Below are positions 19,917 to 34,159 of a DNA stretch of 35,072 nt, piece by piece. Position numbers and translations under genes: made by a program. The notes beneath the pieces are model-generated. The model made no database searches, was not told the origin of the DNA, and saw only the letters and a program-made list of their open reading frames with translations. The stretch comes from Pseudomonadota bacterium (GTDB lineage: Bacteria; Pseudomonadota; Alphaproteobacteria; Puniceispirillales; Marisalimonadaceae), in NCBI GenBank assembly GCA_027625145.1, contig JAQBXK010000020.1:1-35072 (forward strand), read 5' to 3'. Every line of letters starts with the position of its first letter. The stretch's first letter is position 1.

Positions 19917-21017
19917 TTAGCCACCAATTTTGTAACGAACAGGAAATTTGTGCCCAGTTTTTTCCATTTCTTCCATGTATGCATTCATTAAAGCTGCACC
20001 ATCAATACCATAATCTTTTGTTATGTCTTTAGCTCTTGAATTAGGCCAGTCTTTAATTGTTTCAGCCCATATTTTTTGTTGATCTAAAGGAAGATATGTA
20101 ACAGCATCATTAATGCCTTTCTTTTTTCCTAGTTTAACAAGATCTGTTAAACCTTTTTGATATCTTTGTTGGCCATCTTTGACAGCCGCTTTTTCATAAT
20201 TATGTGCTTCTTCTATAATTATTTTTGCAACTTCAGGTGGCAGTTTTTTTAAAGTATCAAGATTGATTGTTGTAATAGTTTGTGCCATAGCACCAAATCC
20301 AATTACTTTCCAATAAGGAGCTTGTTCATAAAATTTAAATCCTCCAGCATGTGCTGATGGAAAAATAATAACTCCTTTTGCAACCCCAGTCGCAAGATCA
20401 TTATACATGGTTGGGAGTGTAGACGTAACTGGAATAGAACCAAACAATGATACCCATGGTAAATTTGGACCAGCAGCTATTACTTTAACACCTTTAAGTT
20501 CACTTGCTTTCTGCCATTGTTTTACAGTTCCTAAGCCATAATCATCAAATCCCTGCATGCCAATAAATTTTTGGTTATATTTATCTTCAAGCATCTTAGT
20601 TAACTGAGGAAATTTTTTAAGAACCTTATGTTTTACAGCCCAACTAGTTTCTAAGTTAGAAGTTGTAAACGGAACAAAGTAATCAAAATTCCAAGGCAAT
20701 AATTTAGCAGTTTCAAAACATACACAATAAGAACCAATGTCTAAAAGACCTTTTTCAACGGCTTCTAAAGTCTCATGAACCTTTGCTATTTTACCTGCAT
20801 AAGCTTCAATGATCTTAACTTTATGTTTTGTTTCAGCTGCCACTCTTTTTTTAATATTTGGAACTAATACTTTTTCCATATTAGTAACGTAAGCTGTCGG
20901 TTTAGATGGATGGCCTGAACCAACCCTTAAAGTAAAAGTATCTGCTAAAGAAGCAGAAGCTATTATTGTCGTGGCTAATACACTTAATGGTATAGCATTT
21001 TTAAGATACCTAATCAT
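19917..21017 (-). CDS. TRAP transporter substrate-binding protein (DctP family)
   Basis: Periplasmic solute receptor of a TRAP transporter, 366 residues from ATG 21017. It has a classic signal peptide (MIRYLKNA, a hydrophobic core, then SASLAD with cleavage likely after LA), followed by FTLRVGSGHPSKPTAYV. A GGGAGGAAAAT ribosome-binding site fixes this start; a longer in-frame reading to 21146 would run into dctM and lacks a signal. The remaining segments (LLDIGSYCVCFETAK, LPTMYNDLATG, KVIGFGAMAQTI) fit DctP proteins. The ligand is unknown but is probably an organic acid-like compound fed to the neighbouring enzymes. Confidence 0.9.
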   Translation of the reverse strand: MIRYLKNAIPLSVLATTIIASASLADTFTLRVGSGHPSKPTAYVTNMEKVLVPNIKKRVAAETKHKVKIIEAYAGKIAKVHETLEAVEKGLLDIGSYCVCFETAKLLPWNFDYFVPFTTSNLETSWAVKHKVLKKFPQLTKMLEDKYNQKFIGMQGFDDYGLGTVKQWQKASELKGVKVIAAGPNLPWVSLFGSIPVTSTLPTMYNDLATGVAKGVIIFPSAHAGGFKFYEQAPYWKVIGFGAMAQTITTINLDTLKKLPPEVAKIIIEEAHNYEKAAVKDGQQRYQKGLTDLVKLGKKKGINDAVTYLPLDQQKIWAETIKDWPNSRAKDITKDYGIDGAALMNAYMEEMEKTGHKFPVRYKIGG

Positions 21018-21041
21018 ATTTTCCTCCCTAGGTAGTATTAA

Positions 21042-21073
21042 GTTTAGCTTATAACCCCATGTTTTTGCTAAAC
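21042..21073 (-). other. Inverted repeat in the dctM-dctP gap
   Basis: gtttagc (21042-21048) and gctaaac (21067-21073) can form a 7-bp stem with an 18-nt loop spanning the dctM stop codon. Stem-loops here could raise receptor expression over permease by protecting or processing the mRNA. The stem is short, so this is weakly supported. Confidence 0.3.
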
Positions 21074-22384
21074 AAAATTCGTTAACCAGCTTGCTAATTC
21101 TGGAAATAATATTACTAATAACATTACTATTAACATCATAATCCAATATGGAATTGACCCTTTAAATATTAGTCCCAGAGGTATGTTATCACCTCCAGCA
21201 GATAAGACGCCTTTAACTGTGTAAACGATAAGACCAAAAGGGGGTGTAAGTAAACCTGCTTCAATAGCTAAAATACCAAAAATTGCAAAAGCATAAGGGT
21301 TTATATCGCCTATTAGTAGAATAAATAAAGGAACAGTGAGTAAAATTATAGATATTGAATCCAATAACATTCCTAAAACTAACCAAATAATTACCATCAT
21401 AAAAAGAACCATTACTTCATTAAGTCCAGCAGATTGCATAGCTGATACAATAAGAGAATCTACATCAGACAAAGAAAGAAATCTCGAATACATTCCTGCT
21501 GTAATTAGTAAAATCATTATTGGAGCGGAAGTTTTTCCAGCATCAATAACTGATGCTACAATTCCTTTCCATTTCATTCCTTTAAATAAAGCAATAAAAA
21601 AACTAGCTAAAGCTCCTACACCAGCAGCTTCCGTAGCTGTAAATATGCCTCCCCATATTCCGCCTAAAACTAAAATTATTAATCCTATAATTGATAAGCC
21701 AGAAAAAACTTCATTCCTAGTAAGCTTTGAAATATCTCCTATACTATCAGGTTCGGGTGCAATATCAGGGTTTCTCCAAGCTTTAAAAAGGTTATATAAA
21801 GCAAAGAAAAGAGCTAATATTATACCAGGAATAACTCCGGCTACAAATAGTTTTCCTATTGAATCTTCAGTAATAATCCCCCAAACAATTAAGAGAACAC
21901 TTGGAGGTATTAACATTCCTAAGCAAGCACTGCCAGCAATCGATCCAACTGCAAAGCTATGATTATAGCCAGCTTTTTTCATTTCAGGCCATGCTATTCT
22001 AGAAAAAGCTGCAGCAGAAGCAATTGACGTTCCTGTTACAGCCGCAAATGCAGCATTTCCAGCAACAGTAGCTACTCCCAATCTGCCTGGAACACCTTTT
22101 AATCCTTTGTTAATTAAAGTATATAAATCACCTGCGGCTCCACTTCTTGACAAGAAGTCACCCATTAAAACAAATAATGGGATAGTCATAAATATATGAT
22201 CTCTAATCAATTCATATGCAGCTCCTCCAACTTGACTCGCCGCCATATATAAATCTTCAAATATAAAATAAGTACCAATCATTGCTGTAGCTCCTAAAGC
22301 TAAAGCAATATGAACACCTGAAAATATCGCTAGCAACATACCTAGCAAAGTTAATAACATAATTGTGTCTAAATCTATATCCAC
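21068..22384 (-). CDS. TRAP transporter large permease (DctM family)
   Basis: A 438-residue integral membrane protein with about twelve hydrophobic segments. TRAP large-permease hallmarks are GVHIALALGATAMIGTY near the N-terminus, HIFMTIPLFVLMGDFLSRSG, AVTGTSIASAAAFSRIAWPEM (ion-binding region), LIPPSVLLIVWGIITEDSIGKLF and LTPPFGLIVYTVKG. The start is GTG at 22384, 23 nt after the DctQ stop, with no strong ribosome-binding site, so translation may be coupled. It forms the transport core with DctQ and is sodium-driven by family knowledge. Confidence 0.93.
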   Translation of the reverse strand: MDIDLDTIMLLTLLGMLLAIFSGVHIALALGATAMIGTYFIFEDLYMAASQVGGAAYELIRDHIFMTIPLFVLMGDFLSRSGAAGDLYTLINKGLKGVPGRLGVATVAGNAAFAAVTGTSIASAAAFSRIAWPEMKKAGYNHSFAVGSIAGSACLGMLIPPSVLLIVWGIITEDSIGKLFVAGVIPGIILALFFALYNLFKAWRNPDIAPEPDSIGDISKLTRNEVFSGLSIIGLIILVLGGIWGGIFTATEAAGVGALASFFIALFKGMKWKGIVASVIDAGKTSAPIMILLITAGMYSRFLSLSDVDSLIVSAMQSAGLNEVMVLFMMVIIWLVLGMLLDSISIILLTVPLFILLIGDINPYAFAIFGILAIEAGLLTPPFGLIVYTVKGVLSAGGDNIPLGLIFKGSIPYWIMMLIVMLLVILFPELASWLTNFV

Positions 22385-22407
22385 TGTGAAAATCTTTTAT
22401 ATAATCA

Positions 22408-22902
22408 TTAATTTAAATTAAGAGTTTGTTTTTTATCGTTTACAAAAGTTTTAATTATTAAAGTTGAATATATTATTACAATTATAATTGAAGAAAAAAT
22501 AATTACAGTACGAATAGGGTAAACAGGGAATTCAATTGCTCCAATTCCTTGATATTCTCCTATCTCCCAGCCTTTAATCATATCAGTCCAACCTCCAACC
22601 GCAATTCCAGTAAAAAGAAGAACTCCAATAATATAGGAAATTCTATTTACAATTCTTTTACCTGTTTCTTTGAAAAAATCATAAATAAGGGTTGTTCTAA
22701 GCATGGTTCCTGAAGCAATAGCAAATGGAACCTGAAGAAAAACTATTGCAGGAACTGAGTTTTGAACAATTTGATCAGCCCCTAAAAAAAGACCGAAATT
22801 TCTAAAAGTCACTTCAGCAAAAATAGTTATAGCTACTAAAATTAGCCATATCGCTGCAATAGCTTGAAGTAATTCTGGTATTTTTTTTAAAAAATTTAAC
22901 AA
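22408..22902 (-). CDS. TRAP transporter small permease (DctQ family)
   Basis: A four-helix membrane protein of 164 residues, with segments near residues 14-36, 46-65, 82-102 and 128-150. AITIFAEVTFRNFG and PAIVFLQVPFAIASGTMLRTTLIYDF are typical DctQ sequences. Two TTG starts are possible; 22902 is preferred because GGGGGAT lies 5 nt before it, matching the G-run ribosome-binding sites used elsewhere in this region. The alternative TTG at 22914 would encode that G-run. It is the first TRAP gene, 62 nt downstream of lysR on the same strand. Confidence 0.87.
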   Translation of the reverse strand: MLNFLKKIPELLQAIAAIWLILVAITIFAEVTFRNFGLFLGADQIVQNSVPAIVFLQVPFAIASGTMLRTTLIYDFFKETGKRIVNRISYIIGVLLFTGIAVGGWTDMIKGWEIGEYQGIGAIEFPVYPIRTVIIFSSIIIVIIYSTLIIKTFVNDKKQTLNLN

Positions 22903-22927
22903 ATGATCCCCCAATCAAAATTAAACT

Positions 22928-22948
22928 TAGACATATTTATAGACATAT
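22928..22948. repeat. 12-bp-spaced direct repeat upstream of the TRAP operon
   Basis: tagacatat occurs at 22928-22936 and again at 22940-22948, a 12-bp period within the short gap between lysR and dctQ. It could be a regulator half-site pair, but the base composition makes chance plausible. Confidence 0.3.
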
Positions 22949-22964
22949 ATCAAGTACGTTTTAT

Positions 22965-23897
22965 TTAATCAGTTAAATTAACTAACTTATTCAACTTGCT
23001 ACTAATACTTTTAATTTTATCACATATTTTATTACTAAACAATTTTGCTGCAGGGCTTAATTCTTTGCTTGCTGAAGTAATAATTACATAATCAGTAATA
23101 AGAGTTGGAGATATTAATGGAGATAAAGTCCTTGCATCACCAGATAAATCTAGGTCACATAACGCCGCAGGTAAAATGCCACACCAATCACTGGAAGCAA
23201 TCATTTCTAGTGTTCCTATCATTCCATCCATTTCAAGTTTTTTTGATATATTTATATTGTGGGTACTAAAGTATTGATTAATAGCTACTCTCCTTGAATT
23301 ATCCGGTCCAGGTAGAATTATTTTAATATCTTTTAAGCTTGATAAATTAATTGGTTTAAGGTGTGTGAGTTTTGATTTTTTAGAAGTTACCAATAAATTA
23401 ATATCACTTGATACAAAATTAACATTTAAACCAGTTGGATTTTTAACTGAAGGAACTATGGCAAATTCTAACTTATTAGATCTTACCATTTCTTCTAAAA
23501 CTCCTGAATAAGCTTCAGTCACTTTTATGTCTACGTTTGGATATTCAAAAAGAAAATTTGATAAAGTAACTGGTAAGGCTGACCTAGTAAAGGTAGGCAT
23601 CAAGCCACAATTAAATGTGCCAGAAAGCTCCTTAGTGTCATTTTTTACGTCGATTAAAGCTTTTTCCATAAGTTTTAAAATATCTAAAGAATATTTATAA
23701 AAAGTTATACCACTTTCAGTGAGAATCAATTTACCCGGAATTCTGTTGATTAGTTTTTTACCAATACTTATTTCTAAATTTTGAACAAGCATAGACATTC
23801 CAGATTGAGTAGCGTTTAATCTTTGAGCAGCCATACTAAAAGATTTTTCTTCAACTACAGCGACAAAAGCTTTTAATTGTTTTATTGATACACTCAT
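22965..23897 (-). CDS. LysR family transcriptional regulator
   Basis: A 310-residue LysR-type regulator. The N-terminal winged helix reads SIKQLKAFVAVVEEKSFS, then AAQRLNATQSGMSMLVQNLE (the helix-turn-helix, about residues 18-50), and KKLINRIPGKLILTESG. The C-terminal effector-binding domain includes GLMPTFTRSALP and GVLEEMVRSNKLEFAIVPS. ATG 23897 is favoured over 23909 because the HTH then begins at the usual distance from the N-terminus. It stands between the TRAP operon and a divergent flavin-reductase operon. A palindromic ATC-N9-GAT site 15 nt upstream of its start suggests autoregulation, and matching sites lie at 8.0 and 17.0 kb. Confidence 0.93.
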   Translation of the reverse strand: MSVSIKQLKAFVAVVEEKSFSMAAQRLNATQSGMSMLVQNLEISIGKKLINRIPGKLILTESGITFYKYSLDILKLMEKALIDVKNDTKELSGTFNCGLMPTFTRSALPVTLSNFLFEYPNVDIKVTEAYSGVLEEMVRSNKLEFAIVPSVKNPTGLNVNFVSSDINLLVTSKKSKLTHLKPINLSSLKDIKIILPGPDNSRRVAINQYFSTHNINISKKLEMDGMIGTLEMIASSDWCGILPAALCDLDLSGDARTLSPLISPTLITDYVIITSASKELSPAAKLFSNKICDKIKSISSKLNKLVNLTD

Positions 23898-23911
23898 ATA
23901 TAAAACCATAT

Positions 23912-23938
23912 ATCATAAAATATGATAGATTTAATCTA
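23912..23938. promoter_or_regulatory. Candidate LysR operator, site A, with adjoining palindrome
   Basis: ATCATAAAATATGAT (23912-23926) is a near-symmetric ATC-N9-GAT box inside a perfect 7-3-7 palindrome (23911-23927). A second perfect palindrome, tagatttaatcta (23926-23938), abuts it. On the minus strand this gives TAGATTAAATC, the same 11-mer that adjoins site B at 8032-8042. The pair sits just upstream of lysR, where binding would cover its promoter or early leader. That fits classical LysR autorepression and possible control of the divergent flavin-reductase operon. Confidence 0.6.
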
Positions 23939-24037
23939 AATAAATAATTACTTATTATACATAAAAAATGATAAAAAAAAAATCTTTAATTAATTATTTG
24001 AAATAATTTTTTAAATTAAGTTAGAAAGAGATAAAGC

Positions 24038-24550
24038 GTGCCTATTCAAAAAAATGGAAAAATAGATATTGTTAATCATGAAAATAAAGAATTTGATGAA
24101 AAATTTTATAAAAATACATTAGGTTTATTTTCAACGGGTATAACTGTAGTTACAACTATTAATGAATATAAAAAACCAATAGGCATGACAGTTAATAGCT
24201 TTGCTTCTGTTTCTTTAAAACCCGCTCTTGTTTTATGGAGTATTGACAAAAATCAACCTAGTTATAATAGTTTTATAAATTCTAAAGGCTATGTTGTTAA
24301 TATTTTAAATAAAAATCAAATTGATTTGTGTTATATTTTTTCAAATCCTTCAGAAAATAAATTTAAAAATATTGAATGGGAATATAGTAAGAATGGGTTC
24401 CCTTTATTATCTAATTCACTTGCTTGGTTTGATTGTATGCCCTGGGCTAATTATCCAGGAGGTGACCATGAAATATTGGTTGGCAAAGTTAGTTCATATG
24501 ACCAAAATAAAAGTGAACCACTTACTTATTGGAATGGAAGCATTAAATAA
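24038..24550 (+). CDS. Flavin reductase family protein (HpaC/RutF-like)
   Basis: A 170-residue FMN-binding split-barrel protein. It shows FYKNTLGLFSTGITVVTTI, then GMTVNSFASVSLKPALVLWSID, typical of NAD(P)H:flavin oxidoreductases that supply reduced flavin to two-component monooxygenases. The C-terminal GGDHEILVGKVSSYD, with PLTYWNGSI, matches the family end (normally PLVFYRGRY). It starts at GTG 24038 behind AGAAAGAG. No oxygenase is adjacent; the LLM monooxygenase at 15.8-16.9 kb is the only obvious partner in the window. Confidence 0.88.
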   Translation: MPIQKNGKIDIVNHENKEFDEKFYKNTLGLFSTGITVVTTINEYKKPIGMTVNSFASVSLKPALVLWSIDKNQPSYNSFINSKGYVVNILNKNQIDLCYIFSNPSENKFKNIEWEYSKNGFPLLSNSLAWFDCMPWANYPGGDHEILVGKVSSYDQNKSEPLTYWNGSIK

Positions 24551-24628
24551 CATTTTTTTAAAAATACAAATAGACGATTTAAATAATAAATGTAAATTTA
24601 ATATATTATTAATAATTTTGAGGTTAAA

Positions 24629-25936
24629 ATGGCTAAGTGGTTAAAAAAAGGGAAGTCAGAAAATGAAATAAAAGAAGCTGATGCAAAGGTAAAAAAAACT
24701 GTTGAAGACATTCTCGCTGATGTTGCTAAAAGAGGGGATCAAGCTGTTAGAGAATTATCAAAAAAGTTTGATAATTACGAACCAGAAAATTTTATATTAA
24801 CTGAGCAAGAAATAGAAAAAGCTATTAGTGAAGTTTCTAAAAGGGATATTGAAGATATTAAATTTGCACAAAATCAAGTTAGAAATTTTGCTTCAAAGCA
24901 ATTAGAATGTATTAAAGATTTAGAAATTGAAACATTGCCTGGAGTTATTTTAGGTCATAAAAATATACCAATTAATGCTGTAGGCTGTTATGTTCCTGGA
25001 GGCAAGTATCCAATGGTTGCTTCTGCTCATATGTCAGTACTTACAGCTAAAGTTGCTGGTGTTAAAAACATCACTGCTTCTGCTCCACCTCAAAATGGAA
25101 AGCCTCATCCAGCAATAGTTACAGCCATGCATTTAGGAGGTGCTGATAAAATACTTTGTCTAGGTGGTATACAAGCTGTTGCTGCGATGGCAATTGGAAC
25201 AGAAACTATTAGTGGTGTAGATATGCTGGTTGGACCTGGGAATATGTTTGTCGCTGAAGCTAAAAGACAGTTATTTGGACGTGTTGGGATTGATCTTTTT
25301 GCTGGTCCAACAGAAACTTTAGTTATTGCCGATAAATCTTCTGATCCTGAAATATGTGCAGTGGATTTACTTGGTCAAGCTGAACACGGGCCAACAAGTC
25401 CATCTATCTTATTAACTAATTCAGAGGATCTTGCATTAAAAACTATAGACGAAATAGAAAGGCAATTAAAAATTATTCCTACGGCGGATATAGCTAAGGT
25501 GTCATGGAAGGATTATGGTCAAGTTATAGTATGTGATAATATAGATGAAATGGTTTCTGTTGCTAATAATCTTGCTTTTGAACATGTACAAGTAATGACT
25601 GAAGATCCGGATTATTTTTTAAAGAATATGACCAATTATGGTGCTTTGTTTCTTGGCTCAAGAACAAATGTTGCATTTGGAGATAAAGTAATTGGAACCA
25701 ACCATACACTTCCTACTAAAACTGCTGCAAGGTACACAGGTGGCTTATGGGTTGGTAAATTTCTAAAAACTTGTACATATCAGAAAATTTTAACTGATGA
25801 AGCTTCAGCAATGGTTGGAGAATATTGCTCTAGACTATGCGCACTTGAGGGTTTTTCAGGTCATGGAGAACAAGCTAACATAAGAGTCAGAAGATTTGGT
25901 GGAAGAAATATAAAGCCATATTCATCTGCAGAATAG
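24629..25936 (+). CDS. Histidinol dehydrogenase family protein (catabolic paralogue, HpsN-like)
   Basis: A 435-residue member of the HisD superfamily, a zinc-dependent NAD-linked dehydrogenase. Zinc and catalytic residues of HisD can be matched: Q250 and H253 in LGQAEHG, E318-H319 in AFEHVQVM, D352 in [14 protein letters not shown] and H412 in GFSGHGEQ. Cofactor segments include [12 protein letters not shown] and [11 protein letters not shown]. There are no other his genes here and it sits in a catabolic operon with an SDR, so oxidation of a diol or alcohol is more likely than histidine synthesis. The sequence [19 protein letters not shown] resembles sulfopropanediol 3-dehydrogenase (HpsN), but that assignment is tentative. 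Confidence 0.85.
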
Positions 25937-25944
25937 GAGTAGAA

Positions 25945-26709
25945 ATGGAATATCCAAAATTACCTAGTTTTAGATTAGATGGTAAAAATGCTTTAATAAC
26001 AGGTGCTGGCAGAGGAATTGGAATGGGAGCATCAATTGCTTTGGCTGAATCAGGAGCCAAGGTAACTCTTGTTTCAAGAACAGAAAGTGAATTAAAGGCA
26101 TTGACTAACCACATTAACTCGTTAGGTCTAAAAGCAACTTATGAAACATTAGATGTTAACAATGAAAATGAAATTGAAAATTTAATAAATAAATCAAATC
26201 CATTTGATATTCTTATTAACAATGCAGGTACAAATAGACCAGCAAAATTGATAGATACAGACCTTAAAGATTTCGATCATGTAATGTCATTAAATGTCAG
26301 ATCAGTAATGAATTTAACAAAACATGTTGTTAAAAAAATGTTAGAAAACAATATTAAAGGTTCAATTATTAATGTTTCATCTCAAATGGGCCATGTGGGC
26401 GGTCCAAATAGAACAACTTATTGCGCAAGTAAATTTGCTATAGAAGGTTTTACAAAAGCTCTTGCAATAGAATTAGGGCCAAATGAAATTAGAGTGAATA
26501 CCATTTGCCCAACTTTTATACAAACACCAATGACTGAACCTTTTTTAAAGGATGAAGACTTTAAGAAGGCAACGCTTAACATGATCCCACTTGGAAGATT
26601 AGGTGACATTAAAGACCTTATGGGGCCTTTTGTTTTTTTAGCTTCTGAAGCTTCCTTACTAATGACTGGGTCAAGCTTATTAGTTGATGGAGGTTGGACA
26701 GCTAGATAA
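25945..26709 (+). CDS. Short-chain dehydrogenase/reductase (SDR)
   Basis: A 254-residue classical SDR. It has the cofactor motif TGAGRGIG (residues 19-26), NNAG (92-95) and the catalytic S146, Y159 and K163 (YCASK). The C-terminal MTGSSLLVDGGWTAR is typical of FabG/gluconate-5-dehydrogenase-like members. The arginine in VSRTES after the second strand suggests NADP(H) preference, an inference. It starts 8 nt after the HisD-like gene behind AGGAG, so the pair is translationally close and may act in sequence on one alcohol or keto intermediate. Confidence 0.9.
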   Translation: MEYPKLPSFRLDGKNALITGAGRGIGMGASIALAESGAKVTLVSRTESELKALTNHINSLGLKATYETLDVNNENEIENLINKSNPFDILINNAGTNRPAKLIDTDLKDFDHVMSLNVRSVMNLTKHVVKKMLENNIKGSIINVSSQMGHVGGPNRTTYCASKFAIEGFTKALAIELGPNEIRVNTICPTFIQTPMTEPFLKDEDFKKATLNMIPLGRLGDIKDLMGPFVFLASEASLLMTGSSLLVDGGWTAR

Positions 26710-26758: not shown

Positions 26759-27259
26759 TTGTCTAATGAAGTAAAATGTAAATTAAAAATAAATGGTTTA
26801 GTTTATAACTTATCAATACCTAGTGATACACCACTTATATTTGTTATAAGAAATAACTTGAATTTAAAGGGCACTAAACTAGGTTGTGGATTAGAGCAAT
26901 GTGGTTCTTGTACTTTATTAGTTGATGGTAAAAAAACTTTATCTTGTAATCAAAATGCTATTGATTTTGAAGGTAAAGAGATAACTACTATTGAAGGCTT
27001 AGAAGTTAATAATAAATATTCATTGTTACAAGAAGCATTTATAGAATTTAATTCAGCTCAATGTGGCTATTGTAGCAGCGGAATAATAATGTCTTTAACT
27101 TCTCTATTTAACGAGAAAAACATACCTACAGAAAATGATATAGTTAAATCTTTGGAAAACAACTTATGCAGATGTGGATCTCATCATTCAGTCTTAAAAG
27201 CTGTAGAAAAGGTGATTTCTATTTTATCTAATGAAAAAGTTGAGAATCAATATGAATGA
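26759..27259 (+). CDS. 2Fe-2S subunit of a NicA/IorA-type molybdenum hydroxylase
   Basis: A 166-residue iron-sulfur protein. The first cluster motif is CGLEQCGSCTLLVDG plus Cys in TLSCNQ; the second is QCGYCSSGIIM with NLCRCGSHHSVL. All eight cysteines are present. It differs clearly from the other 2Fe-2S subunit at 9.0 kb. The apparent start is TTG 26759, with GGGGAG about 14 nt upstream, longer than ideal, so the exact start is uncertain. The following Mo subunit overlaps it by 8 nt, and there is no adjacent FAD subunit, as in nicotinate hydroxylase NicAB and isoquinoline oxidoreductase IorAB. Confidence 0.9.
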   Translation: MSNEVKCKLKINGLVYNLSIPSDTPLIFVIRNNLNLKGTKLGCGLEQCGSCTLLVDGKKTLSCNQNAIDFEGKEITTIEGLEVNNKYSLLQEAFIEFNSAQCGYCSSGIIMSLTSLFNEKNIPTENDIVKSLENNLCRCGSHHSVLKAVEKVISILSNEKVENQYE

Positions 27260-29402
27260 GTTATCGACTGGGCCAAGCATTAAAGTTTATAATTTATTAT
27301 CTAATTGGATTAGCTTTAATAATAATAATAATAAAATTAAAATTTTTTCTGGCAAAGTTGATATTGGTCAACATATAAGTATGACTTTGTCTATCATAGC
27401 TTCTAGAGAGCTAGATATAGACATAGATAAAGTGGAAGTTGTAAATTTAATAACTGGTAAGTCACCAGATGAAGGCTTTACAGCTGGCAGTTTATCAGTA
27501 AGTCACTCAGGAACAGCTTTAAAAGCAGCTTCAATTACTTTTAGAAATTTATTTATTGAATATGTTCTTTCTAAATTTAATGTTGAAATTGATAATTTAA
27601 ATATAGAAAATGGAATTGCCAAAATTTCAGGTACAAATCATTTTTTTTCTTACTGGGATTTTGCTAAATTAGATACTTATAAAAATATAAAAATTACTGA
27701 ATTTATTCCAAAAAGAAATTTTGATATTAATTCTAAAAAAAAATCAAATACAAATAAGACAATAAGAGAAATAATTACTGGAAAATATGAATTTATTCAT
27801 GACTTAAATTTTCCAAATATGCTTCATGCAAGAATTCTAAGGCCACCAAATTATTTATCAAAGTTAAAATCTATAGACAATCAATTAATATCGAAATTAA
27901 AAAATGAGAATATCAAAGTTCTTGTTATAGGTTCTTTTATTGCTGCGATTGGCGTCGATGAATATAAAGTCATTCAATCAATTAATAGATTAAGATCTTC
28001 ATGTATATGGGAATCTTTAGGTGATATAAAAACAACCAACATATTTGATATGTTAGCTAATAACAAAAAAGATACCCTTCTTGTAAAAGCTGGGGGTGAA
28101 GCTTTTCATGAAAATATTCCAAATAAACAAATATTTGATAACAAACAATTTGTAACATTAAATAGCGAATATAAAAAGCCATACATAATGCATGGATCTA
28201 TTGGACCTTCTGCAGCGTGCTCTATTTTTGAAAATAATAGATTTAAAATTTTCACTCACAGTCAAGGCATATATCAAACAAGAAGTGCAATTTGTGAAGC
28301 TTTAAATGTTAAGGAACAAGATATTGAGATGAGCTTTATGCCAGGAGCAGGTTGTTATGGCCATAATGGTGCAGATGATGCTGCATTTGAGGCTGCAAAA
28401 ATTTCAATCTCATTTCCTGGTAAGTATATTTTACTTAAATGGACAAGAGAAGACGAAAATTGTTGGGAGCCTTATGGAAGCGCCGCATTAAGTAAAATAA
28501 CAGGAACTTTAGATTTAAAAGGAAATATTGTTTACTGGTCACACGAGACTTTTGCAGATACATTTATGACAAGGCCTTCAAATGGGGGAGCAGTTAACCT
28601 TTTATCTTTTAAATATATAGAAAATAGTTTTATTAAAAAAAATCATATACCAAGAACAGCTCCTCATATGGGTATACATAGAAACCTTGATCCATTATAT
28701 AATTTCAAAAACACTAGATTAGTAAAAAATTTAGTTCATGATTTACCATTAAGAACTTCTGCATTAAGAGGTCTTGGAGCTTTTGGTAATGTGTTCGCTA
28801 TTGAATGTTTTATGAATGAACTTGCAGAAATTGCCAATATAGATCCTTTAATTTTTCGATTAAATCACCTGGATGATATAAGAGCAAAAGAAGTTCTTTT
28901 AGATTTAAAGAAACAAATGGATAAAAGTATATTAGACACAAGTCATGCCCGTGGAATTGGATTTGCTAGATATAAAAATTCAGCTGCTTATTGTGCCGTT
29001 GGAATAGAAATTAGTATATCAGATGATGCTGAAATAAAATTAATTAACTCATGGATTACAGTTGATGCTGGTGAAATAGTTTATCCAGCAGGTGTCACCT
29101 CACAATTAGAAGGTGGTTTAATTCAAGGTGCTAGTTGGACAATATATGAACAAGTTGAATACGATACAAAATCTATTTTATCTAAGGATTGGGATGAATA
29201 TAAAATTATAGGTTTTGATAATATTCCTAATATAAATGTAAGTATGATTGACAGAAAAGGTTATCCATTTCTTGGTGTAGGTGAGGTTGTGGCTGGCCCA
29301 ATTAGTGCTGCTATAGGAAACGCATTATATAATTTAATAGGAGTAAGATTAAAAACCTTACCTTATACTAAAGTAAATATTAAAAGTGAGATTTTAAATT
29401 AA
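27252..29402 (+). CDS. Molybdopterin-binding subunit of a NicB/IorB-type hydroxylase
   Basis: A 716-residue Mo subunit with the domain order of the IorB/NicB group: a Mo-binding segment first (KVDIGQHISMTLSIIA, TAGSLSVSHSG), then the hammerhead domain (GKYEFIHDLNFPNMLHARILRP, near residue 180), then the remaining Mo domains (PGAGCYGHNGADDA, SALRGLGAFGN, and the C-terminal catalytic-glutamate motif GVGEVVAGP). It lacks the C-terminal cytochrome c domains of Pseudomonas NicB and has no CxxCH, so electrons must leave through another carrier. ATG 27252 is preferred over ATG 27231 because it overlaps the upstream gene by only 8 nt. No Tat signal is visible, so it is probably cytoplasmic. Confidence 0.88.
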   Translation: MNELSTGPSIKVYNLLSNWISFNNNNNKIKIFSGKVDIGQHISMTLSIIASRELDIDIDKVEVVNLITGKSPDEGFTAGSLSVSHSGTALKAASITFRNLFIEYVLSKFNVEIDNLNIENGIAKISGTNHFFSYWDFAKLDTYKNIKITEFIPKRNFDINSKKKSNTNKTIREIITGKYEFIHDLNFPNMLHARILRPPNYLSKLKSIDNQLISKLKNENIKVLVIGSFIAAIGVDEYKVIQSINRLRSSCIWESLGDIKTTNIFDMLANNKKDTLLVKAGGEAFHENIPNKQIFDNKQFVTLNSEYKKPYIMHGSIGPSAACSIFENNRFKIFTHSQGIYQTRSAICEALNVKEQDIEMSFMPGAGCYGHNGADDAAFEAAKISISFPGKYILLKWTREDENCWEPYGSAALSKITGTLDLKGNIVYWSHETFADTFMTRPSNGGAVNLLSFKYIENSFIKKNHIPRTAPHMGIHRNLDPLYNFKNTRLVKNLVHDLPLRTSALRGLGAFGNVFAIECFMNELAEIANIDPLIFRLNHLDDIRAKEVLLDLKKQMDKSILDTSHARGIGFARYKNSAAYCAVGIEISISDDAEIKLINSWITVDAGEIVYPAGVTSQLEGGLIQGASWTIYEQVEYDTKSILSKDWDEYKIIGFDNIPNINVSMIDRKGYPFLGVGEVVAGPISAAIGNALYNLIGVRLKTLPYTKVNIKSEILN

Positions 29403-30605: not shown

Positions 30606-31634
30606 ATGAAAGCTCTAGTTTTACATGGCCCTAATAATCCATTTTCTTATGAAAATGTTTCTGACCCTATCCCTAAAAATGGTGAAGCAGTTGCAAAAGT
30701 TATTGCATGTGGTTCAGGGTTAACTATTCAACATGTTAAAGCAGGTAGAACTGAAGTTAATTTTCCTATAATAATTGGCCATGAGATTACAGCAGAGTTA
30801 GTTGAGTTAAGAGGAAATTGTGGCGAATTAAAAGTAGGTATGCCTGTTACTGCATACTTTTATTTAACTTGTGGTTATTGCAAATGGTGTAAAATTAATA
30901 GAGAGAGCTTATGTGAAAACTTTAATGGATATATTGGCAGGCAAATAAATGGAGGGTATGCAGAATATATTTCTCTTCCAGCTAAAAACTTTATACCTTT
31001 ACCAAATACATTAAATTACAAAAAATACCCTTTAGAGACAGCTATAATTTGCGATGCAATTGCTACACCTCTTAAAGTAATAAAAAAAGGAAGAATTACC
31101 AATACTGATAAAGTTGCTGTAATAGGTGCTGGGGGTGGATTAGGCATTCATATGCTTAAGATGTTAAAAATGTATAACATTGATTGTATCGCTTTAGAAA
31201 CAAAGACTATTAAAGAAAAGGCATGCAAAGAAGCTGGTGCAAATTTGTTTTTATCAACAACATCTAATAACATTATAGAAACTATTCAAGATTATACAAA
31301 AACATATGGATTAGATGTTGTCGTAGACTTTGTTTCTAGTAAAGCATCACTGGAATTAGGCGTTTCTATACTTGGGAAGGGAGGTAGGCTCATAACACTT
31401 GGTGGAAGTGGTGAATCATTTGTTGCAGATTCTGGAAAAATGTTATTAAAGGAACTAGAACTTATAGGAAGCAGGTATTGTACAAAACAAGAAGTTTTAG
31501 ATAGCTTAGAATTGGTTGCTCGTAAACTTATAACCCCATTAGTAACTGAAAAAGTTTCTCCACTTGAAGCAAATGAACTTCATAATAAAATAGAAATGGG
31601 GACTGTTATTGGACGAGCAGGCATTATATTCTAG
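30606..31634 (+). CDS. Zinc-containing alcohol dehydrogenase, medium-chain (MDR) family
   Basis: A 342-residue MDR dehydrogenase. The catalytic zinc region includes C35 in ACGSG and the GHE motif (H59, E60) in IIGHEITAE. The structural zinc cysteines are C89, C92, C95 and C103 in TCGYCKWCKINRESLC. The Rossmann motif is VIGAGGGLGIHML (about residues 173-185). The usual CGTD-x-H after the catalytic cysteine is altered to CGSGLTIQH, so activity on typical alcohols is less certain. It ends tail-to-tail with the isochorismatase-family gene, sharing the palindromic CTAG as both stop codons. Confidence 0.9.
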   Translation: MKALVLHGPNNPFSYENVSDPIPKNGEAVAKVIACGSGLTIQHVKAGRTEVNFPIIIGHEITAELVELRGNCGELKVGMPVTAYFYLTCGYCKWCKINRESLCENFNGYIGRQINGGYAEYISLPAKNFIPLPNTLNYKKYPLETAIICDAIATPLKVIKKGRITNTDKVAVIGAGGGLGIHMLKMLKMYNIDCIALETKTIKEKACKEAGANLFLSTTSNNIIETIQDYTKTYGLDVVVDFVSSKASLELGVSILGKGGRLITLGGSGESFVADSGKMLLKELELIGSRYCTKQEVLDSLELVARKLITPLVTEKVSPLEANELHNKIEMGTVIGRAGIIF

Positions 31635-32323
31635 ATATTTAATTTTTTATAAAGTTCATTTTTATTTAATACCCATGCAATAGATCTTGACATAATATCA
31701 AGAGCAGCAAGGTGTTGATCTTTTCCTCGCATACTTCCTGTGCATTCTCTAATTAAAATAGGCTTGTATCCTCTATTACTAGCCCCAAAGGCTGTTCCGT
31801 ACACACATGTGTCAGTGTTAACTCCACAAATTAAAATGTTTTTAAGACCAATAATACGACTAATTAATTGATGTAATTCAGTTTCATGAAACGAGTCAAA
31901 GTTTCTCTTACTAGTAACATGAAAATCTCCTTTACCAATAAATAAGTCAGGAAGTTTTGATGACATTGTCCCTTCAACTCGTTCTGGCTTTTTTCTAGCG
32001 GATGCTTGAGCATTTTGAGATAAATTATTTGATTGGCTTACATCTATATATGGACTAATAAAAAAATTATGATTTAGTTCTTCTTTTCTTCTAACTACAT
32101 AGCAATGAATAATTGGAACATCATTTTTTCTCATTTTCATAAGAAAATCATTGGTATTTTTAGTAATGCTTTCTATGTCATCATTAGCTAAAGGAGACGT
32201 GCCATATTTAGGATTTAAATATTCATTCTGCATATCAACTGTAAGAACACATACATTATCTATAGAAATATCTAAGAGGTTATTCATTTTTTTTGTATAA
32301 TCTGAGAAGTTGTTTTGTTTCAT
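31631..32323 (-). CDS. Isochorismatase family cysteine hydrolase (amidase-like)
   Basis: A 230-residue cysteine hydrolase with the Asp-Lys-Cys triad readable as D30 (LTVDMQNEYL), K139 (TSKRNFDSFHETEL) and C173 (CGVNTDTCVYGTAF). Family members include ureidoacrylate, maleamate and N-carbamoylsarcosine amidohydrolases, so deamination of an open-chain amide is a reasonable role. ATG 32323 is chosen because AAAGGA lies at the right distance; the longer reading starts at a TTG (32347) without such a site. It is a single-gene minus-strand unit, divergent from the damaged dehydrogenase gene. Confidence 0.87.
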   Translation of the reverse strand: MKQNNFSDYTKKMNNLLDISIDNVCVLTVDMQNEYLNPKYGTSPLANDDIESITKNTNDFLMKMRKNDVPIIHCYVVRRKEELNHNFFISPYIDVSQSNNLSQNAQASARKKPERVEGTMSSKLPDLFIGKGDFHVTSKRNFDSFHETELHQLISRIIGLKNILICGVNTDTCVYGTAFGASNRGYKPILIRECTGSMRGKDQHLAALDIMSRSIAWVLNKNELYKKLNI

Positions 32324-32400
32324 TATAAATTCCTTTAAAAAATACAAATTGATATAATAAATCTAATTTATTATATTATATAATTTTAAGAGGAAAATAT

Positions 32401-33297
32401 ATGGAAAGTTTTTCATTTAATAACAAGATATCTATAATAGGATTAGGTGTTCTTGGTTCAGCAATTGCATAGAATTTTATAGAAAAAAAAATATCTATTT
32501 CAGGTTTTGATATATCAAATAAAGCAACTGAAAAATTAAAAAATAAAAATATAAAAATTTATAATTCTATTAATGAGGTAATTGATAATAATAAATTTAT
32601 AATCACCTCTCTCCCTTCGGAAAAAAGTTTGATCAGTGTATCTAGTCAATTATTTAATAAAAAAAAGGAAAAAATAATAATAATAGAAACATCAACTTTA
32701 CCATTAGATTGTAAATTAGAAGCTAAAGAAATCCTTTCAAAAGAGAACATTTTAATTTTTGACGCCCCTTTGTCAGGAAATAGAATGGCAGCTTTGGAAG
32801 GAAAATTATCTGCATATTTAAGTGGAGAAAAGTTAAATAAAGATTATGCAAAGACAATTTTAAATATGTTTTGTCAAAAGGTTACTGATGTTGGGGATTT
32901 TGGCAATGGTACCATTGTTAAATTAATAGGTAATATTCTAAATCTTGTTCACAATGCTGTTGCTGGAGAAGTTATGGCTTTAGGAATAAAATCTGGCCTT
33001 GATCCAGAGGTTATATTTAATGCTATAAGTGGCACTTTTTCATCTTCAGGTGTTTTTGAAAATAGAGGAAAACTTATGGTTGATGAAGATTATGAAAAAG
33101 AAGGAATGAATTTTTCAACATCCATTAAAGATTCTAGCTTTATAACAGATTTATCAAAAAAATATATGGTTCCACTTCCTATATATCAAGTTGCTCTGCA
33201 GTATTATTATGCGGCAGTCGCTCAGGGTCACTTTGATAAAGATGCTGCATCTGTTCTAAAAGTAATAGAAAAAAATGCAAATATTCATAGAAAATAA
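32401..33297 (+). pseudogene. Beta-hydroxyacid dehydrogenase gene interrupted by an in-frame TAG
   Basis: Reading from ATG 32401, behind an intact AAGAGGA ribosome-binding site, gives a normal 3-hydroxyisobutyrate-dehydrogenase-type N-terminus (ISIIGLGVLGSAIA) and then a TAG at codon 24 (32470-32472). The same frame continues without further damage for 274 codons to 33297, including DAPLSGNRMAA, FGNGTIVKLIGN (catalytic lysine) and a normal C-terminus. The stop falls in the first Rossmann helix, where many sorts of residue are tolerated. It is either a very recent pseudogene, a sequencing or assembly error, or a read-through codon. A TTG restart at 32629 would lack the cofactor motif. Confidence 0.8.
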
Positions 33298-33298
33298 A

Positions 33299-34159
33299 TT
33301 ACTTTACTATGTTTTTATTCCATAATTTATAAATTTCAGTGAAATCATTAAGATCTAATTTATTATTAAAATCATTTAATAAAGAACTAGTTAATTTTAT
33401 ATAATTATTACTTGTTTCTTTTGAATCAGAAAAATCTTTGACTAATTGAAGGTCCTTTTTTAAATTTTTAATAATAGACTTGCCATCAAATTTTTTATTT
33501 AAAATGTGATTTGGAAATCTTTCTTGACTTATATAACTTCTTGCATTTGAACAATTAAAAGTATTAATTAAATCTTCTAATGAAATACCTAACTCTTCTC
33601 CTAAGTTTCCAATTTCACACATCATTAGAAATATTCCATGGCACACAGAGTTATGTAATAATTTCATTGAGTGACCATTTCCAATGTTTCCATAATAAAA
33701 CACGTTTGAAGCCATTGATGAAAATATTTTAGTTAAATATTTTAATTCCTCTTTCTTACCTCCTATCATTAAAGTTAATGTACCATTTAAAGCGCCAGAA
33801 GCGCCTCCAGACATTGCTGCATCAAAGTAACTAATGTTCTTTAATTTAAGATATTTATAGAGTTCTAATGTGTTTTGAGGATTTGATGTTGTTAAATCTA
33901 TATAAGTAGAATTAAATTTTAAAATTTTATTTTCTATAATATTTAATATTTCTTTATTTGAAGGTACTGCAAATAAAATAACATCTGATACTTCTAAAAT
34001 GTAATCAATATTTTTATAATTAATTTCTTTTTTTGATTTTGTTAACTCAAGATTATTATCATATCCAAAAACATTGAAACCTTTTTTTTTTAATCTATTA
34101 TATATTGAACTTCCCATACTTCCTAGGCCAATAACAGATATTTTTAAATTTTGTTTCAT
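33299..34159 (-). CDS. NAD(P)-dependent beta-hydroxyacid dehydrogenase (second intact copy)
   Basis: A 286-residue protein of the 3-hydroxyisobutyrate dehydrogenase family. It has GLGSMG (residues 11-16), DAAMSGGASGALNGTL (113-128) and the catalytic motif G160-x-G162-x-x-x-K166 with N170 (GNGHSMKLLHN). It is convergent with the interrupted relative, with 1 nt between the genes, and lies 18 nt downstream of the ABC permease on the same strand, so it is probably the last gene of the transporter operon. It is a different subgroup from the 17.0 kb copy (DAAMSGG against DAPVSGT), suggesting a different substrate. Confidence 0.87.
   Translation of the reverse strand: MKQNLKISVIGLGSMGSSIYNRLKKKGFNVFGYDNNLELTKSKKEINYKNIDYILEVSDVILFAVPSNKEILNIIENKILKFNSTYIDLTTSNPQNTLELYKYLKLKNISYFDAAMSGGASGALNGTLTLMIGGKKEELKYLTKIFSSMASNVFYYGNIGNGHSMKLLHNSVCHGIFLMMCEIGNLGEELGISLEDLINTFNCSNARSYISQERFPNHILNKKFDGKSIIKNLKKDLQLVKDFSDSKETSNNYIKLTSSLLNDFNNKLDLNDFTEIYKLWNKNIVK

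Follow-up and report, generated by a model that had tools for sequence, protein, structure and literature searches.

The window, i.e., the whole stretch of 35,072 nucleotides analyzed here, corresponds to one entire contig (C41) of the draft genome of a SAR116-type marine bacterium; this genome of 2.27 Mb comprises 83 contigs and is 95.7% complete. In this contig, a dehydrogenase gene of the HIBADH family is interrupted by a single stop codon and lies among intact genes. The features of the region are the following:

30606..31634, plus strand: Zn-dependent alcohol dehydrogenase gene (Zn-ADH), intact, a conserved neighbour, which itself ends in TAG
31631..32347, minus strand: isochorismatase-family hydrolase gene, intact, divergent, a conserved neighbour
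32390..32395, plus strand: Shine-Dalgarno-like AGAGGA, read in the sequence, with a putative function
32401..33297, plus strand: HIBADH-family dehydrogenase gene with one internal stop (298 codons plus TAA), the focal gene
32470..32472, plus strand: in-frame TAG at codon 24, in the helix that follows the GxGxxG motif
32629..32631, plus strand: TTG at codon 77, the first in-frame start past the stop
33299..34159, minus strand: second HIBADH-family gene, intact, convergent, about 29% identical to the focal protein

The reading frame of the focal gene begins with the ATG at 32401, with a Shine-Dalgarno-like AAGAGG stretch just 5' of it, and besides codon 24 its remaining 297 codons are open up to the TAA at 33295-33297. 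On re-reading, the TAG was found at the position and codon number given in a first-pass annotation of this DNA, and the claim made there that the ribosome-binding site, the start, the motifs and the 274 codons past the stop are undamaged was borne out. When the TAG is read through, the frame shows the HIBADH-like two-domain architecture, with Pfam matches to NAD_binding_2 (E 2.6e-27) and NAD_binding_11 (E 7.1e-20). The alignment with intact orthologues revealed agreement in the GxGxxG, DAPLSGN and FGNGxxxKLIGN motifs and in the C-terminal region, and the catalytic lysine K174 and N178 are invariant in it.

The best structure matches of the read-through protein were 1vpd (tartronate semialdehyde reductase), 3cky (2-hydroxymethylglutarate dehydrogenase) and 5je8 (3-hydroxyisobutyrate dehydrogenase). 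The protein shares with the 3-hydroxyisobutyrate/tartronate-semialdehyde/threonate dehydrogenase superfamily the two Pfam domains as well as the GxGxxG, DAPxSG and catalytic Lys motifs; it differs from these enzymes in the interruption at codon 24 and in that no curated NCBIfam equivalog reached its cut-off. HIBADH, ThreonDh, GarR/GlxR and sulfolactaldehyde reductase were scored, all of them falling far under the cut-off (best score 152.8 vs 350), and for this reason an exact substrate was not assigned. A second copy of the focal gene was not found on another contig of this genome.

The closest orthologues belong to SAR116-cluster alphaproteobacteria, and the hosts of the orthologues found in a named collection are mostly members of the same cluster, many of them represented by single-cell genomes. 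With a GC content of 31%, the window is in keeping with the low-GC subclade of SAR116 reported in PMC8547437. That subclade is streamlined, and streamlined genomes generally carry few pseudogenes (PMC8547437). Of the 57 other genomes of the family, 12 had intact orthologues. A profile search of a collection of genome contigs identified 20 orthologous loci in relatives (a single-protein search of the same contigs gave none), and internal stops are absent from all 20. The full-length SAR116 orthologues are 53-76% identical to the focal frame. The gene order Mo-hydroxylase, MocA-type oxidoreductase, Zn-ADH, isochorismatase, focal gene, second HIBADH and ABC permease is kept in close relatives and partly kept in distant ones; a counterpart of the region was not found in the one other genome of the same genus that was examined. 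Since the sequences on both sides of the stop are orthologous to full-length SAR116 genes that occupy the same position in the gene order, the interrupted frame is not a product of chance.

Codon 24 could be read in 19 of the 20 orthologues, and in all 19 it is a sense codon, for Lys (AAA/AAG), Glu (GAA), Gln (CAA) or Arg (AGG), which makes the stop private to this genome. The orthologue comparison proposed in the first-pass annotation turned up no other damage in the relatives. The accompanying statement that a single substitution would bring the gene back is compatible with these sense codons. Viral contigs gave no match to an exact probe of 30 bases taken just 5' of the stop.

To evaluate the constraint acting on the gene, we compared its divergence with that of its neighbours. 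The read-through protein shares 73-75% identity with its orthologues from five close relatives, a range much like those of Zn-ADH (74-75%) and the isochorismatase (71-73%). For the branch of this lineage, a two-ratio codon model gave the focal gene a nonsynonymous divergence of 0.19 per codon, compared with 0.195 in Zn-ADH and 0.20 in the isochorismatase. Saturation of the synonymous sites (fitted branch length of 46) makes the absolute dN/dS of the focal branch untrustworthy; omega values were therefore set aside, and nonsynonymous divergence relative to the neighbours was used instead. Under neutrality, each substitution per site should add about 49 stops to the frame; since not even a second one is present, neutral drift is limited to about 0.06 substitutions per site. 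Besides the stop itself, no sign of decay was found in the gene. An older pseudogene was rejected on these two tests, given that further lesions are absent and nonsynonymous divergence is not raised. The neighbour-like divergence and the lack of a second stop indicate that maintenance of the gene continued until very recently, or continues today.

These observations make it likely, in our view, that a very recent nonsense mutation, either fixed or present as a strain variant, arose in an otherwise healthy catabolic dehydrogenase gene; the probabilities assigned here to the competing readings are our own judgement. That the TAG exists in the organism, and hence that the gene has lost its activity, is our inference. 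According to this model, the gene would have been inherited vertically and kept under normal constraint until the nonsense change, which may be fixed in the lineage or be a variant in the sampled population. Translation would start normally and RF1 would terminate it at the TAG after 23 residues. No enzyme would be made: restarts, at codon 77 or later, would miss the half of the Rossmann fold that binds the nucleotide. If the base is real, the case has in common with recent bacterial pseudogenes created by a single nonsense change one private stop, an otherwise intact gene, ordinary divergence and a conserved gene order; no difference from them was detected.

The main rival of the nonsense mutation is a base error introduced by assembly, consensus calling or whole-genome amplification, in which case codon 24 would be a sense codon in the living organism and the gene would work. 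We regard this as possible but less likely. It would account for a gene that is fully constrained and free of a second lesion, and for a single private stop being the sole difference in integrity from the intact relatives. The source of the sequence also points in this direction, as the genome is a draft in 83 contigs with 95.7% completeness and the lineage is represented in this analysis only by uncultured cells and metagenomes; the scarcity of pseudogenes in streamlined genomes (PMC8547437) lends the error more weight. Against it, only about 5% of random single changes yield a stop, and a survey of about 183 kb from this genome showed no further gene that is clearly interrupted. Position 32470 was the sole clear case there of coding-like sequence that crosses a stop and has no new start behind it. 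The remaining cases listed are short segments, which were judged to be probable shadow frames. Interrupted paralogues suspected on contigs C3 and C29 proved to be complete ORFs (296 and 282 aa), with the TAA outside the gene proper.

A functional reading of the amber codon, in which a suppressor tRNA or leaky termination decodes the TAG and yields the full-length enzyme, seems to us very improbable. The constraint on the rest of the frame would agree with it, and codon 24 is a variable charged or polar site of the helix (K/E/Q/R) that would tolerate the insertion of Lys or Gln. However, a tRNA with a CUA anticodon was found in none of the 30 typed tRNAs (150 of 199 candidates were scored, in a genome that is 95.7% complete), nor by two pattern searches, the generic pattern recovering 27 of the 30 known tRNAs (about 90%). 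A suspected suppressor tRNA on contig C83 was a tRNA-Arg(TCT) matched out of register, and three matches to a long-arm pattern were at the same level as the reversed control. A partial tRNA at the end of contig C72 carries, as read by eye, the anticodon GCA (Cys). PylS had no match above the cut-off in this genome, and the genes for RF1 and RF2 are both present. In addition, TAG is a normal terminator here, ending 23 of 147 long coding-like segments (about 183 kb), and the search for TAG inside other genes gave no other clear case in the same 183 kb. The TAG shares with natural amber suppression and pyrrolysine decoding its in-frame location in a constrained gene; unlike in those systems, no suppressor tRNA or PylS above the cut-off was found, RF1 is kept, TAG terminates and no relative has a conserved TAG. 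It is equally doubtful that a real TAG, through leaky termination or a missed suppressor tRNA, would allow the enzyme to be made in small, tunable amounts.

The production of a functional shortened protein from a downstream restart is the least credible reading, since the in-frame TTG at codon 77, whose 222-aa frame still matches the C-terminal domain, lies past the cofactor-binding motif and cannot yield a working enzyme: GxGxxG and roughly one half of the NAD-binding domain would be missing from the product, the first in-frame ATG past the stop is codon 129 (32785), and the short form occurs in no relative.

Four options had been raised at first for this stop; loss in progress, strain polymorphism and assembly error are retained, and amber read-through is left unsupported. 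The TAG is thus most likely an ordinary loss-of-function change (or an assembly base error) and not a new stop-codon reading, with little significance outside this genome. If the base is real, it would be the first step of gene loss in a low-GC, probably streamlined SAR116-type lineage whose surrounding catabolic cluster is still intact; if it is an error, it calls for caution in annotating uncultured genomes.

Other observations were made around the gene. The second HIBADH gene (33299-34159) diverges fast (57-60% identity with the same close relatives), and in relatives G004, G006 and G020 no counterpart of it was observed next to the focal gene. The large subunit of the molybdenum hydroxylase (27231-29402) is 53-57% identical to its syntenic counterparts in near-full-length matches, its MocA neighbour reaching 82-84%, so that, judged from the sequence, this subunit may have undergone unusually fast divergence or replacement. 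In relative G062, the MocA-type orthologue aligns as two overlapping pieces in different frames (L059:483-1614), suggesting a frameshift or a sequencing error. Finally, the cluster at 19917-26709 encodes a TRAP transporter (DctP, DctM, DctQ), a LysR regulator, a flavin reductase, and HisD-like and SDR dehydrogenases, a set that may resemble hpsKLM/hpsN-type sulfopropanediol (DHPS) catabolism.
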